DNA of 64,000 nucleotides, from NCBI GenBank assembly GCA_022827345.1, contig JAJDTB010000062.1:1-64000 (forward strand), read 5' to 3'. The notes under the pieces are model-generated. The model searched no databases. It was not told the origin of the DNA and saw nothing but the letters and a program-made list of their open reading frames with translations. The translations under genes were made by a program, and so were the position numbers. This document shows, one piece after another, positions 51,717-59,064 of the stretch; position 1 is the stretch's first letter, and every line of letters begins with the position of its first letter. This DNA comes from Gemmatimonadota bacterium (GTDB lineage Bacteria > Gemmatimonadota > Gemmatimonadetes > Longimicrobiales > Gaopeijiaceae).

Positions 51717-52433
51717 CTACCAGTCGACCTTGTCCGGTTCCGGTCGATAGCGTGCGATTCCGTCGCGGGTCAGCCTGAAGGCAGCGGCCATCACCAATGC
51801 GCTCGACAGAAGAATGGCCGATGCCAGGATCGCGGGTCCCGAATCTCGAGCCACCAGATCGGTGACAACGTCCAGCGGACTACCGAACAACCGATCGAAT
51901 ACCCACAGGACTCCGAACAGCACGACAAATGGGACCAACAGGCCGATGCTGGCCAGTCGCGTCACCGTGTAGCGCATCGTCAGCCCGATAAGCAGCCAGG
52001 AAGCGGCGGACGAGCTGAACCAAACCAGAGGATAGGCAACGATCACGACCCGAAGCGCCGGGGTATCGAGCAGCGGCGGGAGCACGATGCCGCACGCGGC
52101 AGTCACGAAGATCGCGCCCAGGGCCGTCAACCCGCTGGCCGCCGCGCAGCGCGCCAACGCGAGACTCGGTGGAGTCGCCGGGAGACCGGCGAGGAACTCC
52201 ATCGTGCCGTCCAGCTTGTCCTTCAGGACATGCATCGCGCTCATGCCCACGAAGCTCAGCCCGACGGCGACCGCAATGAACCCCACGGCACTTGAATCGA
52301 AACCGGCCAGCGCAACCACACCGACCGCCGCGAGCGCCCCTCCCAGGGTGTGCAGCACCTGCTTGCGCACGCGTCGGAATTCCAGCCCCAACAGACTGCC
52401 GACGATACGACGCGGGGAGATGAGTCTATTCAT
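51717..52433 (-). CDS. ABC transporter permease of the peptide cluster
   Basis: 238 residues with six predicted membrane segments (TLGGALAAVGVVALAGF; VGFIAVAVGLSFVGMSAMHV; TALGAIFVTAACGIVLPPLL; LVPFVVLFGVLWVFDRLFG and others). The middle motif KDKLDGTMEFLAGLPATP is typical of ABC-2 type permeases. It overlaps the ATPase gene by 8 bp and is the last gene of the C39/small-peptide cluster. ABC-2 pairs in bacteriocin clusters often give immunity or export. Confidence 0.78.
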   Translation of the reverse strand: MNRLISPRRIVGSLLGLEFRRVRKQVLHTLGGALAAVGVVALAGFDSSAVGFIAVAVGLSFVGMSAMHVLKDKLDGTMEFLAGLPATPPSLALARCAAASGLTALGAIFVTAACGIVLPPLLDTPALRVVIVAYPLVWFSSSAASWLLIGLTMRYTVTRLASIGLLVPFVVLFGVLWVFDRLFGSPLDVVTDLVARDSGPAILASAILLSSALVMAAAFRLTRDGIARYRPEPDKVDW

Positions 52434-53163
52434 CTGTGGATCTCAGCAGGGTGTAGAGTTTCCTGGACATCGGCGTTGCGGGGTCGCGCGCGTCCACATC
52501 CGCAGCCGACATGTCGGCCACCAAGCGACCGTCCCTCAGGAGGACGACGCGATCGGCAAAGCGCTCGACATCCTCGAGGATATGGGTCGAGTAGAGGACA
52601 AGACGTTTGCCGCCGGCGGGAGCGGACTCGTTGATGACCTGCAGGAGTTCGCCACGCATCACGGGATCGATGGACGATGTGGGTTCGTCGAGGACGAGAA
52701 CGGGTGGACGGAATGCCTCGGCAGCGACGAGGGAGAGCTTGACGGCCATCCCCTTCGAGAGAGTTCCGACCCGGGAAAGGAGCGGCAGCTGCAGGCGCTC
52801 CGCGAGGTCGGCGGCGTGTGCATCATCCCAGGTGGGGTAGAAGTTCGACAGGAACCGCAGGTGTTCGCCCACGGTCAGCCACCCGTACCCCAGCAGGCGC
52901 TCCGGCAGGAATCCGATACTTGCCCGGATCGCCGGCAGATTCGATCGGACTTCCGTCCCCCCCACGGTGACGGTACCTCGATAGTCGTTCATCCTCCCGG
53001 CCATGGCCTTCAGGAGGGTGCTCTTCCCCGCTCCGTTCGCACCGACCAGTGCGACCCGCTCTCCCGGGTGGAGATCCAGACTCAGGGGACCAAGGGTGAA
53101 GTTGGGGTATTCGACCCTGAGGTCCCGCACACTGACCTCCGGCCTCGTTTCAGCCGGTTTCAC
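52426..53163 (-). CDS. ABC transporter ATPase of the peptide cluster
   Basis: 245 residues from GTG 53163 (GTGA overlap with the upstream stop). Walker A is VGANGAGKST, the signature is LSKGMAVKLSL (degenerate LSGGQ), and Walker B is VLVLDEPTSSID, then STHILEDVER. The 25-kDa CcmA/BcrA-type ATPase works with the downstream permease. Its likely job is self-protection against, or release of, the peptides encoded upstream; inference from context. Confidence 0.88.
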   Translation of the reverse strand: MKPAETRPEVSVRDLRVEYPNFTLGPLSLDLHPGERVALVGANGAGKSTLLKAMAGRMNDYRGTVTVGGTEVRSNLPAIRASIGFLPERLLGYGWLTVGEHLRFLSNFYPTWDDAHAADLAERLQLPLLSRVGTLSKGMAVKLSLVAAEAFRPPVLVLDEPTSSIDPVMRGELLQVINESAPAGGKRLVLYSTHILEDVERFADRVVLLRDGRLVADMSAADVDARDPATPMSRKLYTLLRSTDE

Positions 53164-53837
53164 AGCGTCACCTGGGCCCGAACGGCCGCGAACGCCAGTA
53201 CGGCTGCCCACATGAGGCAGGCCAGACCGACCGCTCTCGCCCGGCTGAATCCGAAGCAGTGGCGGAACGCTGCGGTCAGGAAAAGGAACCACGCCAGGTG
53301 GAACAGCGTGACGGACTGCGCCACCGCCCACAGAACCGGCATGGTGGGAGGCACGATCGCCCCCAGGCCCAGGGGGAGCTGCAAGTCCTGAGGCGACGAT
53401 ACGACGCCCCCCGTGGTGAGATGCACCAAAAGAACAACTGCCACACCCTGGAACATCAGAATCGCCTCTCCGTACAGTAGCACCGAGACGAGCGGCCTTA
53501 TCCGGCTGTCGACACCGCCGAGGGTCAGGGCGGCCCACCCAACCGCAGTCAGGAGCAGGGCCTTGAGCAACATCAGAAGCGGCGCGATCAGCGCGGCAAA
53601 CACGAGCACGAGCTGGACGGTCGACGATGCACCAGGCTGTTCACCGCCCAGGGCGCGCAGGAGCAGCGGCCGCGAAGCGACCGCAGCCACGACCGAGAAC
53701 ACCCAGCCCGCGACCAGCGGAGGGAAGACGGGCTCATGCCTCCTGATGTCATCAAGGCCCGGTACCAGAAGGGCGAGGAAGCGCCTGATCCGGCCCCAGC
53801 CCGTGGGCCGCGGCGGGTCGATCACCATTTCATTCAT
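53160..53837 (-). CDS. YIP1-like membrane protein
   Basis: 225 residues with about five to six membrane segments (VAGWVFSVVAAVASRPLLL; LVLVFAALIAPLLMLLKALL; AVGLACLMWAAVLAFAAVRA). The pattern of a cytoplasmic N-terminus followed by a five-helix bundle resembles Yip1-domain proteins. It is ATGA-coupled to the thioredoxin-like gene and GTGA-coupled to the ATPase. YIP1-like genes occur next to ABC ATPases in many bacteria; the function is unknown. Confidence 0.65.
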   Translation of the reverse strand: MNEMVIDPPRPTGWGRIRRFLALLVPGLDDIRRHEPVFPPLVAGWVFSVVAAVASRPLLLRALGGEQPGASSTVQLVLVFAALIAPLLMLLKALLLTAVGWAALTLGGVDSRIRPLVSVLLYGEAILMFQGVAVVLLVHLTTGGVVSSPQDLQLPLGLGAIVPPTMPVLWAVAQSVTLFHLAWFLFLTAAFRHCFGFSRARAVGLACLMWAAVLAFAAVRAQVTL

Positions 53838-54376
53838 TGTTCTGATTCATCTCCGGTAATGGTCTGTATGTTGTTGATCAGCCTCCGCCTGCTGCTCTGT
53901 CCGACCTCGACGATGCGGACCGTATCCGTGGCGTCGATCCAGAAGGCGGCGGGCACCGCGTTGACTCCCAGCATTCGTCCTGCGCTGCCGTCCGGATCCT
54001 GCACCGTTCGCGCGCGGAGAGGCTCGGGCACCCATTGTGCACCCTCCATTTCCGAGGTGGGTGACGCGACCACCCAGACCCTCTCCGCAAAACCATGCTC
54101 GGGAGCCAGGGCTTCCCACTGATCCAGTTCGGCCCGGCAGTACACGCACTCACGATCCACGTAGAGAAGGACCGCCGGAGACCCTTTCATTTCCTCCAGG
54201 CTCCCGGGGCCTCCCCCGACCTGTACAACGGTCAGGGGAGGCAACGGCCAGGGAGGCTGCCGCGGGCCGGAACCGGCCCGATTCCCATTCGCCAGGAGCA
54301 CCGGCAGCAGCGCGGCCGCGGCGGCGCACGCAGCCACAAGCACGGCCGCAACCCTGCGCGGAACTGCTACGTGCAT
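53834..54376 (-). CDS. Membrane-anchored thioredoxin-fold protein
   Basis: 180 residues from ATG 54376. One N-terminal membrane segment (AAVLVAACAAAAALLPVLLA) is followed by a redoxin domain with C77-x2-C80 (VLLYVDRECVYCRAELDQW), RVWVVASPTSEMEGAQWV and the cis-Pro-type loop LGVNAVPAAFWID. In this cluster, which encodes several two- and four-cysteine peptides, it is probably the oxidase or isomerase for their disulfides. The start lies 10 bp inside the upstream peptide gene. Confidence 0.75.
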   Translation of the reverse strand: MHVAVPRRVAAVLVAACAAAAALLPVLLANGNRAGSGPRQPPWPLPPLTVVQVGGGPGSLEEMKGSPAVLLYVDRECVYCRAELDQWEALAPEHGFAERVWVVASPTSEMEGAQWVPEPLRARTVQDPDGSAGRMLGVNAVPAAFWIDATDTVRIVEVGQSSRRRLINNIQTITGDESEQ

Positions 54377-54636
54377 GCCAGCACGCGCGCGTAGAAAGTA
54401 AGGCCGGGATAGGCGGGACCGCCCGCGACACAATCGAGCCACGTGATGACCCGGACCGCCGACCCGACGAATTCGAGCAACTGGCCGCCGGAGGGATCGC
54501 TCGCGACGGTCTGCCGATGCACCTCCTGGACGGTGGCCTCGCGGGGACGGGCCGTCGGCGGTGCAAGAACGGCTGCGCATGACACTGCCACTGCCAGCCG
54601 CATGGCAAGGGCTCGGTGAAAGATCGCTGTGGGCAT
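54367..54636 (-). CDS. Secreted two-cysteine peptide (precursor-like)
   Basis: 89 residues from ATG 54636. A signal-like segment (MRLAVAVSCAAVLAPP) leads to a hydrophilic stretch and then SDPSGGQLLEFVGSAVRVIT, WLDCVAGGPAYPGLTFYARV and LACT. The GGQ and the pair of cysteines 18 residues apart recall the next two peptides (GGQ, cysteines 20 apart). Processing after GG by the C39 peptidase would release about 43 residues. The family is unknown. Confidence 0.5.
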   Translation of the reverse strand: MPTAIFHRALAMRLAVAVSCAAVLAPPTARPREATVQEVHRQTVASDPSGGQLLEFVGSAVRVITWLDCVAGGPAYPGLTFYARVLACT

Positions 54637-54649
54637 CGTCACACCGCCG

Positions 54650-54937
54650 CTAGCCAAGGGTGCCGAGGAGCACGCCGCCGCAAACGGGAACGGCGAAGAT
54701 GAGCGCGAGCGGCATCACAAAGGAGAGGCCGGCGAGTCCAATGCAGAGATAGACATCCTCCGCCGCCTGGCCTCCCACGACATGCGTCGCGTCGACGACC
54801 TGAATCGACTCGGCGACGTGATCGGTGTCGCCCCACGCCGAACCGCCATGTCCCAGCAGCGAAGCGTTGATGATGGACAGAGCTGCCAGGGTTGCCATGG
54901 CAGAACGGATTTTCGTTGATCCTGAGAATTTCTTCAT
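54650..54937 (-). CDS. Secreted bacteriocin-like peptide, GGQ family member 1
   Basis: 95 residues from ATG 54937. The N-terminus is signal-like (SAMATLAALSIINASLLGHG); a linker ends in VVDATHVVGG; then QAAEDVYLCIGLAGLSFVMP and LALIFAVPVCGGVLLGTLG. The two cysteines are 20 residues apart in a very hydrophobic, Gly-rich tail. It is a clear paralogue of 54943-55215 (A-L-S-x-x-N-A-x-x-L-G-H and VVGGQ shared). GG before Q is a candidate C39 cleavage site, giving a 39-residue peptide. Confidence 0.65.
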   Translation of the reverse strand: MKKFSGSTKIRSAMATLAALSIINASLLGHGGSAWGDTDHVAESIQVVDATHVVGGQAAEDVYLCIGLAGLSFVMPLALIFAVPVCGGVLLGTLG

Positions 54938-54942
54938 TTTGG

Positions 54943-55215
54943 TTACCCCCAAGTCCGTACTACGGCCGAGTAGCACGACATTGCTGCAAATACTCCCATG
55001 AACGGAAAGAAGTGGGCGCCGACGCCCGAAACGACGCAGGTCACCCAGTCAATTCCCTGGCCTCCGACCACATCGGGGCCAGTTCGTGTTTCTGCCTGGT
55101 ATGCGACGGGTGCGCCAGTACCCGTCCCCTGCATCTCGTGTCCGAGGTACAGGGCGTTCGACAGCGAGAGCGCCGCTACCAGGCACAGCACTCGCCGATT
55201 CAATCTTGAAGTCAT
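54943..55215 (-). CDS. Secreted bacteriocin-like peptide, GGQ family member 2
   Basis: 90 residues from ATG 55215, with AGGAGG 4 bp upstream. Signal-like segment VLCLVAALSLSNALYLGHEM, linker ending TGPDVVGG, then QGIDWVTCVVSGVGAHFFPF and MGVFAAMSCYSAVVRTWG. The cysteines are 20 residues apart, as in the previous peptide. Cleavage after GG would leave 38 residues. The gene ends 5 bp before the start of the next gene on the same strand. Confidence 0.68.
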   Translation of the reverse strand: MTSRLNRRVLCLVAALSLSNALYLGHEMQGTGTGAPVAYQAETRTGPDVVGGQGIDWVTCVVSGVGAHFFPFMGVFAAMSCYSAVVRTWG

Positions 55216-55259
55216 GGTTCCTCCTGAGTTGTGTTGCTCGTCACGACGGATCCGGCCGC

Positions 55260-55559
55260 CTATGAAAAGCCAACGGTGCATGCACCGACGCAGGCTCCGA
55301 GTAGGGCGCCGTTTGCGCCCGCGAGCACAAGAAGACCGATCACCGACGACCCGCCCCCCACGATTGCGCCGGCCGCGCACCCCGCGCAGATGAGCTTGGC
55401 CAACCAGGGACCCGTTCCGACGACCGCTTCCGTCACAGGCGTGGCCGGCGGGGTTGCCGAAGCGGAGCCTGCTGCGACCTGACCGCCGATGGCGGCGGCC
55501 GGAACGGCGATCAGCGCGAGAATACCCGCAATGGTTCGCACTACTGACTGCTTTTTCAT
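55260..55559 (-). CDS. Secreted four-cysteine Gly/Ala-rich peptide 1
   Basis: 99 residues from ATG 55559. Signal peptide (AGILALIAVPAAAIGGQVAA), linker to VTEAVVGTGPW, then LAKLICAGCAAGAIVGGGSS and VLAGANGALLGACVGACTVG. The cysteines are C-x2-C, 28 residues, C-x3-C, the same plan as 55610-55894. The hydrophobic glycine-rich core is typical of pore-forming bacteriocins; halocin C8 is a distant analogue in style only. A 15-bp tandem duplication (GAAGGAACGAACAAT twice) copies the ribosome-binding site and start, so an alternative ATG at 55574 exists. Confidence 0.65.
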   Translation of the reverse strand: MKKQSVVRTIAGILALIAVPAAAIGGQVAAGSASATPPATPVTEAVVGTGPWLAKLICAGCAAGAIVGGGSSVIGLLVLAGANGALLGACVGACTVGFS

Positions 55560-55609
55560 TGTTCGTTCCTTCATTGTTCGTTCCTTCTCCCTGTTGCAGG
55601 GGTCGATGA

Positions 55610-55894
55610 TCACAGGTTTGCACACGCTGCTATGCATCCTGCGAGGGCCAGCGAAGACCCGGGAACCGACGCTGCCGCAACGACGGCACCCCAGCCCCCG
55701 GCGGCGATACCGATCCCGGCCACGAGACATCCCACGCAGGCTGCAAACGTCTTCCAGCCAGTCCCGGTGACGTCCTCTGCCGCTGCCGGTGGTTCGCCGG
55801 TCCCGAAGGATGCGCCCGGCTGTGCTGCGCTGTGCATCCCCAGGACGGCGAGACACAATCCGAGGGTAAGAACCCTCATGTTAGATCGAAGCAT
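55610..55894 (-). CDS. Secreted four-cysteine Gly/Ala-rich peptide 2
   Basis: 94 residues from ATG 55894 with GGAGG 5 bp upstream. Signal peptide (VLTLGLCLAVLGMHSAAQPG), then EDVTGTGWKTFAACVGCLVA, a Gly/Ala-rich core and SSLALAGCIAACANL. The cysteine plan is C-x2-C, 30 residues, C-x3-C, matching 55260-55559, and both share G-T-G-x-W/K before the first cysteine. The start lies 14 bp inside the C39 peptidase gene, so it is the first peptide of the operon. Confidence 0.68.
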   Translation of the reverse strand: MLRSNMRVLTLGLCLAVLGMHSAAQPGASFGTGEPPAAAEDVTGTGWKTFAACVGCLVAGIGIAAGGWGAVVAAASVPGSSLALAGCIAACANL

Positions 55895-56552
55895 TTTTCC
55901 TCCAATGATGGTGCTTGAGCCCATGGCGCAGTTCGCCACGGGAGATCCGCTCCTGTCCGGCCAGCAGCACGGCTTCGCCGGACCAGATGGATCTGAAGTC
56001 CTGTTCGCTGATCGTGTAGCGACCCACGCGCGGGTCGATGACCGTGATGGTCCCGGTGGGACTCAGGTCCGTCACTGTGACGAAATGATTGCGGTTGACC
56101 CATGCGATGAACGGTCTCGGAGTGGCGGCGACCTGCTCCGGGGCGATGTGCTCCAGGGTCATCGGCAGCCCGAAGACCGCGCCGGCCCGAATGAGCCCGC
56201 TGGCTCTGGTCCCGACCGGGCCGGTGCCCGCAAGCGTGGCCAGCGAGTCCAGCGATGGGGCATCGATGCCGACGGCGTGCAACAGGTTCGCCAGGGCCGC
56301 GGGCCCGCAGTCGTTGAGGGTGGCCTGCAGGACCACGCCTTCCGCTCCGAGATACGAGCCCCCGAGATCGGTCAACTCCTGCCGGGCGGCGATTCTGCCC
56401 ATGCGCGGCAGTTCCGTGACTGCGAACGCCGCGATTCCGATGGTGGCCGGAACCAGCACCAGTACCGCCAGCGCACCCAGTCGACGGACTGCGGAAGGGT
56501 GCCGGAAGAACGCCTTGCGAGGATTTGTGGAGCCGGACCGACGTGCGATCAT
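55881..56552 (-). CDS. Membrane-anchored C39-family peptidase
   Basis: 223 residues from ATG 56552 (TTG 56591 is an in-frame alternative). One N-terminal membrane segment (ALAVLVLVPATIGIAAFAVT) is followed by a papain-like C39 domain: Q76 and C82 in LQATLNDCGPAALANLL, H156 in AWVNRNHFVTV and D173 in TVIDPRVGRYT. C39 peptidases cut bacteriocin leaders after double glycine; usually they are fused to an ABC exporter, whereas this one is free-standing and faces the periplasm. As first gene of the cluster it is the likely processing enzyme for the downstream peptides. Confidence 0.8.
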   Translation of the reverse strand: MIARRSGSTNPRKAFFRHPSAVRRLGALAVLVLVPATIGIAAFAVTELPRMGRIAARQELTDLGGSYLGAEGVVLQATLNDCGPAALANLLHAVGIDAPSLDSLATLAGTGPVGTRASGLIRAGAVFGLPMTLEHIAPEQVAATPRPFIAWVNRNHFVTVTDLSPTGTITVIDPRVGRYTISEQDFRSIWSGEAVLLAGQERISRGELRHGLKHHHWRKNASI

Positions 56553-56705
56553 GCCGAGGATTCCGTGATTGTGAGTCGTCTCTGCGATCAAGCGAGAGAG
56601 ACTCTACAGGGTCCTCAGGGGCGTTTCCATAGCTGGATGGGACAGATTTCCGGCCGCCCGCAATCCACCGGCGAGGGCGGCCCGGACGCCGGGTGCCTCG
56701 GAGGC

Positions 56706-57326
56706 CTACAAGGTCATCAGCACCGCCAGGATGTCCTCGTTGGTGGGCCGCACGCGGTAGTCGACCTCGACGAAGCTGTATCGGACGACCCCCTCCCTGT
56801 CGATGACGTAGGTCGCCGGGTGCGGCAGCGGCCTGTTCGGGGGTGCATCCTCGTTGAAGAGGCCGTAGCGGTCGATCACCCGGTGGTCCGGATCCGACAG
56901 CATGATAAAGTCGGGCGTCACGCCGTCATCAGCAGCGACTCGGTCGATCATCAGCTGCATGCCTTCGCGGTCGTCCACCGACACCGTCACGATCTCCGTG
57001 TCGTCCTGCAGTTGGTCGGGAAGAAGGGCTCTCAGCTCCACGAGCTGACTGGCGCAGTACGGTCACCAGTGGCCGCGGTAGAAGACCAGGACGACGTTCT
57101 TCTCGCCCCGGAAGCCGGCGAGGTCCACCGCCCCGTGCTCGAAGGATTCGAGGGTGAAGAGCGGCGCTTCAGTGCCAATCGCCACACGCCCGATATCGGT
57201 GGGGGGCAGGTCGTGGCCGTCCACGGGACCCAGCGTCTGGGCGGCGGCGGGCGCGGATGCGAAGAGGCCGGCAAGCAGCAGCGGCAGGATGCCGGCGCGG
57301 ACCGGCGATCTTGGAGAGCGTTTCAT
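56706..57326 (-). CDS. Peroxiredoxin-like protein with predicted selenocysteine (UxxC)
   Basis: 206 residues if the TGA at 57063-57065 is read as selenocysteine (residue 88). Before it: a signal peptide (AGILPLLLAGLFASAPAAAQ), then APLFTLESFEHGAVDLAGFR and VLVFYRGHW. After it, in the same frame: PYCASQLVELRALLPDQLQ, then TEIVTVSVDDREGMQLMIDR and LSDPDHRVIDRYGLFNEDAP. Relatives have C-P-Y-C at this place, so the TGA replaces the first catalytic Cys. A hairpin right after the TGA (57032-57048) fits a bacterial SECIS. A nonsense mutation is the alternative, but the frame beyond is intact and well conserved in pattern. Predicted periplasmic thiol peroxidase or oxidoreductase. Confidence 0.75.
57032..57048 (-). 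promoter_or_regulatory. Candidate bacterial SECIS element
   Basis: In the mRNA of the peroxiredoxin-like gene, U-CAGCUC pairs with GAGCUG-A (7 bp) around a three-base loop GUG. The loop begins 21 nt after the UGA and its first base is G, which agrees with the general bacterial SECIS model (loop 16-37 nt downstream with G in the first two loop positions). Confidence 0.55.
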
Positions 57327-57405: not shown

Positions 57406-59064
57406 ATGTGTTCCGTCCTCGCCATCCTCGAAATCGATCCGGCCGCTCCGTACTCGCGCGAGCGCGCGCTGTCCCTGTCCAGGCTGCAGCAGCACCGCGG
57501 CCCCGACTGGTCCGGCGTCTTCGCCGGCGAGCGCGCCCTCCTGGCGCACAACCGCCTGGCCATCGTCGATGTCGAGCACGGTGCCCAGCCGCTCGAGAAC
57601 GCCGCCGGCACGCACGTCCTGGCCGTAAACGGGGAGATCTACAACCATCGCGCCCTCGAGGCGGAGCTCGGCGGCGCCTTCCAGCCCCGCACCCGCAGCG
57701 ACTGCGAAGTCATCCTCGGCCTCTACGCCGAGCAGGGCAGCGACTTCGTGGATCGCCTGAACGGGATCTTCGCCTTCGTCCTCTACGACATCGAGCAGGA
57801 CCGCTACATCGTCGCCCGCGACCACCTCGGCATCGTGCCGCTCTACACCGGGTACGACGACGAGGGGCGCTTCTACGTCGCCTCCGAGATGAAGGCGCTC
57901 GTGCCGGTCTGCCGCACAGTGTCGGAGTTCCCGCCGGGCCACGTGCTCGACTCGAACGACGGCGAGCCCCGGCCCTACTACAACCGGAATTGGCGGACAT
58001 TCGAGGCGGCCACAGCCGAGCCCGGTCCTGACGGCGTCCGCGAGGCCCTCGAAGCGGCGGTCCACCGCCAGCTCATGTCGGACGTCCCCTACGGCGTGCT
58101 CCTTTCCGGAGGCCTCGACTCGTCGATCATCTCGGCGGTTGCGCGCCGGTTCGCGCGGAGGCGCGTGGAGGACGACGACCAGAGTGAGGCCTGGTGGCCC
58201 CGGCTCCACTCGTTCTGCATCGGCCTGGAGGGCTCGCCGGACCTGGCCAGCGCGCGCATGGTCGCGGATCACATCGGCACCGTGCACCACGAGTTCCACT
58301 TCACGGTGCAGGAGGGGATCGACGCCCTGTCCGACGTCATCCACCACCTCGAGACCTTCGACGTCACCACCGTCCGCGCGGCGACGCCCATGTACCTGAT
58401 GGCGCGGCGCATCCGCACGCTGGGGATCAAGATGGTCCTGTCTGGCGAAGGGGCCGACGAGGTCTTCGGCGGCTACCTCTACTTCCACCGCGCGCCCGAC
58501 CCCCGCGCCTTCCACGAAGAGACGGTGCGGAAGATCGACCGGCTGCACCAGTTCGACTGCCTGCGCGCCAACAAGGCGATGGCTGCCTGGGGCGTCGAGG
58601 CGCGGGTGCCCTTCCTGGACAAGGAGTTCCTGGACGTGGCCATGTCGATGGACCCGGCAGCGAAGATGCCGAACGGAGGGATCGAAAAGCGGATCCTGCG
58701 CGAGGCGTTCGCCGACTACCTGCCTCCGGAGATCGCGTGGCGGCAGAAGGAGCAGTTCTCGGATGGCGTCGGCTATTCCTGGATCGATTCGCTGAAGGCG
58801 CACGCGGAGCGGAGCGTCAGTGACCGCGAGCTGGCCAGCGCGCCCTACAGGTTCCCGGCAAACCCGCCGACGGACAAGGAGTCGTACCTGTACCGGCGCA
58901 TCTTCGAGTCGCACTTTCCGCTGCCCTCGGCGGCGGCGTGCGTCCCCGGCGGCCCGAGCGTCGCCTGCTCGACCCCCGAGGCCCTGGCCTGGGACGGCAG
59001 TCTGTCGGAGACGATCGATCCGTCAGGGCGCGCGGTCGCGGGTGTGCACCGGGCGGCGTACTGA
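57406..59064 (+). CDS. asnB: Asparagine synthase B, glutamine-hydrolysing
   Basis: 552 residues, the same length class as E. coli AsnB (554). C2 (MCSVLAI) is the glutaminase nucleophile after Met removal; RHRGPDWSG-like LQQHRGPDWSGVFAGE, VNGEIYNH and SDCEVILGLY complete the class II amidotransferase domain. The synthetase domain has the PP-loop VLLSGGLDSSIIS and LSGEGADEVFGGY. It makes asparagine from aspartate, ATP and glutamine. It is divergent from the selenoprotein gene with a 79-bp shared promoter region. Confidence 0.95.
   Translation: MCSVLAILEIDPAAPYSRERALSLSRLQQHRGPDWSGVFAGERALLAHNRLAIVDVEHGAQPLENAAGTHVLAVNGEIYNHRALEAELGGAFQPRTRSDCEVILGLYAEQGSDFVDRLNGIFAFVLYDIEQDRYIVARDHLGIVPLYTGYDDEGRFYVASEMKALVPVCRTVSEFPPGHVLDSNDGEPRPYYNRNWRTFEAATAEPGPDGVREALEAAVHRQLMSDVPYGVLLSGGLDSSIISAVARRFARRRVEDDDQSEAWWPRLHSFCIGLEGSPDLASARMVADHIGTVHHEFHFTVQEGIDALSDVIHHLETFDVTTVRAATPMYLMARRIRTLGIKMVLSGEGADEVFGGYLYFHRAPDPRAFHEETVRKIDRLHQFDCLRANKAMAAWGVEARVPFLDKEFLDVAMSMDPAAKMPNGGIEKRILREAFADYLPPEIAWRQKEQFSDGVGYSWIDSLKAHAERSVSDRELASAPYRFPANPPTDKESYLYRRIFESHFPLPSAAACVPGGPSVACSTPEALAWDGSLSETIDPSGRAVAGVHRAAY

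Follow-up and report, generated by a model that had tools for sequence, protein, structure and literature searches.

The window analysed here, a stretch of 64,000 nucleotides from a Gemmatimonadota bacterium (assembly GCA_022827345.1, contig JAJDTB010000062.1, positions 1 to 64,000), contains a gene whose reading frame is crossed by a TGA triplet, which raises the question of whether this triplet breaks the gene or is read as selenocysteine (Sec). The first-pass annotation had favored a peroxiredoxin-like selenoprotein, on the grounds that the TGA stood where relatives have the first Cys of C-P-Y-C, that the frame stayed open for 118 more codons, and that a 7-bp hairpin with loop GUG followed at the correct distance. 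It had seen no sel genes in the window and had named Sec machinery elsewhere in the genome, Cys/Sec alternation among homologs, and the base itself as the points to check; a genome without the machinery, or a TGC or TGT at the site, would have told against the proposal.

Translation of the minus strand from 57326 to 56706 revealed an ATG, 86 further codons, a TGA at codon 88, 118 sense codons, and a stop codon other than TGA, in agreement with the open frame first described. The features of the gene are as follows.

56706..57326, minus strand: entire selenoprotein gene with its stop codon, encoding 206 residues; delimited by translation, the AhpC/TSA domain, and orthologs
57063..57065, minus strand: in-frame TGA, codon 88, taken as selenocysteine (U of UxxC); TGA in 69 and TGC in 3 of 72 orthologous loci
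57054..57056, minus strand: TGC, codon 91, encoding Cys91, the partner of Sec88 in the redox pair; conserved as Cys in all but one of the 72 orthologous loci, the exception being a second copy with Ser
57240..57326, minus strand: likely signal peptide, read by eye from a basic start (KR...R), a hydrophobic core, and an AxA-type end (APAAAQ) near residue 29

The TGA lies in the context FYRGHW-U-PYC, giving the redox pair U88-P-Y-C91, and residues 50-183 match the AhpC/TSA domain PF00578 with 94.1 bits against a cut-off of 26. Judged by its N-terminal sequence, the product is probably exported to the envelope. Annotation of the TGA as a stop would leave a 111-residue fragment starting at GTG (56706..57041) from which the active site is lost, and an equal loss is expected wherever the TGA form occurs. 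Our reading, for which the comparative evidence is strong and to which we give a probability of about 0.95, is that codon 88 is recoded as Sec in a SelB-dependent selenoprotein of the AhpC/TSA fold.

Orthologs were collected in two ways. A scan of named genomes yielded 15 loci, and the TGA was present in all 11 of those from Gemmatimonadota (or Longimicrobiales) whose sequence spans the site, a count that leaves out locus L032, which stops short of it. The same scan, from which spread beyond Gemmatimonadota was judged, contributed three distant homologs from other groups (L033-L035, 28-34% identity) with Cys codons at the site. Within the phylum, 298 genomes were searched, with at most 10 initial candidates scored in each, so that weak paralogs may be missed; some relative (E ≤ 1e-5) was found in 276 genomes. 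A group of 72 loci in 71 genomes, all with E ≤ 2.7e-51, was clearly separated from the remaining matches, the best of which had 1.1e-18, and these loci may overlap the named-locus genomes. The site codon was TGA in 69 of these orthologous loci, with the frame open on either side, and TGC in three. Together with Cys in the distant homologs, this bears out the first-pass annotation in its placement of the TGA at the first Cys of the relatives' motif. Relative to Sec, the residues L-8, R-4, G-3, W-1, Q+6, and L+7 were invariant in 72/72 loci, and Cys at +3 was found in 71/72.

A chance TGA is excluded because the same codon is TGA in 69 of 72 orthologous loci with an open frame. An error in sequencing, or a nonsense mutation that recently turned an ordinary Cys gene into a pseudogene, would take only a single base, the difference between TGA and TGC or TGT, and the window comes from a 75-contig assembly; however, TGA recurs at this codon in those 69 loci, in independently assembled genomes of other species, single-contig assemblies included (e.g., G017, G058, G068, G069, and G074), and the downstream frame and protein sequence are kept. 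Both forms of this explanation are refuted because the TGA is conserved, and we regard their residual probability as negligible. Comparison with locus L038 over 100 codons downstream of the TGA revealed 32 synonymous and 10 non-synonymous codon changes, and synonymous changes exceeded non-synonymous ones in 6/6 pairs compared. By this measure, the codons 3′ of the TGA are under purifying selection.

Several further loci carry in-frame TGA codons. A second copy in genome G239 (L066, contig C308) has Ser in place of the resolving Cys (WUPFS) and keeps both the TGA and the hairpin described below. The source genome itself encodes a more distant paralog (L114, G000:C51:8835-9350, minus strand) with an in-frame TGA in FFRGRW-U-PYC, and in-frame TGAs were likewise found in L110-L113, L115-L117, L122, and L125, some of which have their own hairpin at about equal spacing. 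Two related proteins, L108 (G007) and L120 (G003), have the TGA in DW-U-GYC, the former with a long C-terminal extension.

In the RNA just downstream of the UGA, the following element was found.

57032..57048, minus strand: bacterial SECIS-like hairpin with a 7-bp stem (UCAGCUC/GAGCUGA), loop GUG, and a spacer of 14 nt after the TGA, identified by RNAfold, conservation, and resampling

The hairpin is real, with stem, loop, and distance as first proposed, and belongs to the minimum-energy fold calculated by RNAfold. It lies just 3′ of the UGA and has a G in a small apical loop, as described for the SECIS apical loop in PMC1088965. Among the 69 TGA loci, all seven pairs can form in 60 and six in the other 9, and the loop begins with G in every case (GGG 18, GTG 15, GGC 14, GGA 12, GGT 10). 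The outermost pair (15-31) alternates between T-A (42) and G-C (22) and is the sole covarying pair, the stem being otherwise nearly invariant. In each of the three Cys loci, an internal mismatch interrupts the stem, leaving 6, 4, and 5 pairs. When synonymous codons were redrawn 1000 times with the codon frequencies of the remainder of these genes, the complete stem arose in a mean of 2.9 and a maximum of 9 rows as against 44 of the 53 distinct rows observed, a contrast that is not a strict probability, the rows being related. Synonymous resampling cannot explain the conservation of the hairpin. When the structure was slid along the genes, the best other offset gave 5.3 pairs as compared with 6.9 at the site.

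The machinery needed for Sec insertion was found in the source genome (4.79 Mb in its 75 contigs, 97% complete). A tRNA-Sec scored 76.5 bits and was also called by ARAGORN (tRNA-SeC, anticodon tca), and SelB (320.9 bits; cut-off 242.25), SelA (508.4 bits; cut-off 267.9), and SelD (378.3 bits; cut-off 125) were all above their cut-offs. These four genes sit elsewhere in the genome, on contigs C17, C19, C61 (selD), and C65; within the window (contig C68), none of the four had an above-cut-off match. This agrees with the first-pass annotation, which had noted no sel genes in the window, and the lack of machinery in the genome that would have told against its proposal was not what we found. The selD gene (L018, G000:C61) has an in-frame TGA of its own in GAGUACK, a second recoding site in a known kind of selenoprotein.

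Presence of SelB was then compared with the codon at the site. Among the 71 genomes with an ortholog, SelB scored above the cut-off in 67, against a background of 218/298 in the phylum sample, and below it in G039, G073, G278, and G121. The first three are exactly the three TGC genomes, all without SelB, while G121 has the TGA and a SelB in two pieces at two contig ends. TGA therefore goes with SelB in 68/68 genomes (one split, G121) and TGC with its absence in 3/3. The alternation of Cys and Sec in the alignment thus exists and tracks SelB. Worked out by hand, a hypergeometric model gives such a split a chance of 1 in C(71,3), or roughly 2 in 100,000, but the three Cys rows belong to one clade (tree support 100/99). 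Because they form one clade, the association of Sec with SelB represents one evolutionary event and not three. The tree (rows L036-L125, 90 loci, minus L118, L119, L123, and L124, plus L033-L035) has long, misplaced branches (L121, L108/L120) and was used just to group the Cys trio. From the placement of the g49 clade among Sec rows on this long-branched tree, we infer that the change there ran from Sec to Cys.

For the tRNA-Sec gene, the cut-off of the Rfam model RF01852 (47 bits) fails to separate tRNA-Sec from other tRNAs in these genomes: matches of 46-50 bits (L126-L129) were identified by ARAGORN as tRNA-Ser (G039, G278, and G122) and tRNA-Leu (G097) and were rejected. A minimum of 54 bits was therefore applied, giving tRNA-Sec of at least 54 bits in 64 of the 71 ortholog genomes instead of 67. 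It was absent at this threshold from the three Cys genomes and from G097, G122, G209, and G279. The latter four have the TGA and SelB, and our guess is that assembly gaps account for the missing tRNA-Sec.

These distributions also bear on whether the TGA could be decoded as another amino acid, such as Trp, through a changed code or a suppressor. An open frame and the Trp next to the site would suit such decoding, but the alternative residue among orthologs is Cys (TGC in 3/3, with Cys also in L033-L035), the full Sec machinery is present, and TGC is limited to genomes without SelB. Furthermore, in many orthologs the only nearby in-frame TGAs are the site itself and one about 117-125 codons further on, at the end of the homologs; since this second TGA falls where homologs end, TGA also acts as a stop. 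A changed genetic code was rejected on these grounds, and we consider decoding as another amino acid very improbable. Recoding as Sec would proceed by binding of SelB with Sec-tRNA(UCA) to the hairpin just downstream and insertion of Sec at UGA 88.

Structure prediction (pLDDT 87.2, 12 sequences) gave a peroxiredoxin fold, and the best PDB matches were Mycobacterium tuberculosis AhpE (1xvw, 4xih; Z about 20-21, 28-29% identity) together with peroxiredoxins related to it (Z about 20); such matches show the fold, which does not decide function. Alignment with AhpE paired Sec88 with the Thr of PxxxTxxC and Cys91 with the peroxidatic Cys, and an Arg takes the place of the motif Pro, the motif residues being named as is usual for peroxiredoxins. 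Across the orthologs, the PxxxTxxC/U motif of true peroxiredoxins is altered, its Pro being replaced by Arg (72/72) and its Thr by Sec or Cys. In the predicted model, a peroxiredoxin scaffold carries a thioredoxin-like active site whose UxxC opens a helix. The original description of the protein as peroxiredoxin-like thus stands for domain and fold and needs a refinement at the active site, where Sec occupies the Thr position and the second Cys the peroxidatic one. Cyanobacterial Prx-like proteins are described in PMC3514251 as likewise having one Cys of a CxxC that corresponds to the peroxidatic Cys.

Two main functions were weighed. The protein may chiefly be a hydroperoxide reductase with true peroxiredoxin function, Sec being peroxidatic and Cys91 resolving. 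Selenols react fast with peroxides, the domain is AhpC/TSA, and the nearest solved structures are peroxiredoxins, but the Pro and Thr of PxxxTxxC are replaced by Arg and Sec, and among NCBIfam models none exceeded its cut-off on the selenoprotein, all curated peroxiredoxin families scoring below theirs. We rate this function as possible, at somewhat under even odds. At about even odds, the protein would instead act mainly as an envelope thiol:disulfide oxidoreductase, in a ResA/TlpA-like role on a peroxiredoxin fold. The thioredoxin-like UxxC at the helix start and the probable export fit such a role, as does a weak match to the ResA model (40.7 bits, below the cut-off of 170), and two reviews (PMC13188914, PMC9312934) call proteins of this kind Prx-like thiol:disulfide oxidoreductases. 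The gene neighborhood, on the other side, gave no hint of a redox partner: of three neighbors tested, the asparagine synthase alone was present in 11/11 loci. The adjacent features are as follows.

57406..59064, plus strand: asparagine synthase (AsnB type, PF00733), divergent neighbor, adjoining the ortholog in 11/11 named loci
55881-56591, minus strand: C39-peptidase-like protein (PF03412)
about 54650-55939, minus strand: several small hydrophobic ORFs with Cys, precursor-peptide-like
53834-54580, minus strand: Cys-type AhpC/TSA protein with CVYC
52426-53538, minus strand: ABC ATPase

We know of no functional link between AsnB and the selenoprotein. In 5/11 named loci the ortholog is followed by the C39-like gene, and the minus-strand genes beside the selenoprotein gene (52426-56591) are possibly a secreted-peptide cassette.

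From fold and motif, a common course of reaction can be proposed for the envelope. The selenolate of Sec88 would probably attack an oxidized substrate, which may be a hydroperoxide or a disulfide. Resolution by Cys91 would then give a Sec88-Cys91 selenenylsulfide, and a thioredoxin-type partner would reduce this bond. More tentatively, at odds a little short of even, the orthologs may constitute a phylum-wide family of exported Gemmatimonadota selenoenzymes that is separate from the Prx-like selenoproteins named so far. Its members would work with reversed roles, Sec at the old Thr position attacking and the old peroxidatic Cys resolving, under strong selection for selenium, and Cys would appear only upon loss of SelB. 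With 72 loci that have either Sec or Cys at a single codon, in step with SelB, the clade offers a large, clean set for studying when bacteria keep or drop selenocysteine.

The kind of protein is already known, and the first-pass annotation was right that UxxC Prx-like selenoproteins occur in metagenomes. A Sargasso Sea survey of 2005 reported 22 Prx-like selenoprotein sequences, 21 of them UXXC (PMC1088965), an ocean survey reported 225 sequences of Prx-like 1 with PF00578 and UxxC (PMC2398784), and reviews of 2022 and 2026 list a Prx-like thiol:disulfide oxidoreductase with PF00578 and UxxC/UxxU (PMC9312934, PMC13188914). Gemmatimonadota are not mentioned in these two reviews, and among the matches listed for Gemmatimonad and selenocysteine literature, no title concerned Gemmatimonadota selenoproteins. 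With the present clade, the range of envelope redox proteins encoded with Sec would come to include a phylum absent from both reviews; nothing known is overturned.

Comparison with individual systems revealed both shared and distinguishing features. PrxU/Prx (TxxU; NF040737) resembles our protein in its AhpC/TSA fold and in having selenium at the active site, but carries Sec as the peroxidatic residue of TxxU and not, as in our protein, in place of the Thr; the NF040737 score is 34.4 against a cut-off of 270. M. tuberculosis AhpE has the same fold but is a one-Cys enzyme with Thr-Gly-Ile-Cys where Sec-Pro-Tyr-Cys is found here. SelL-related redox proteins (NF040769) match weakly in the region of the redox motif (38.9 bits; cut-off 120). 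The Prx-like thiol:disulfide oxidoreductase selenoproteins share PF00578, the UxxC pair, a bacterial SECIS hairpin just past the UGA, and Cys homologs; their listed representative is WP_010940744.1. The Gemmatimonadota proteins are characterized by their FYRGHW-U-P-aromatic-C motif and probable export. What is added to this known kind is a deeply conserved, probably exported clade of the Gemmatimonadota.
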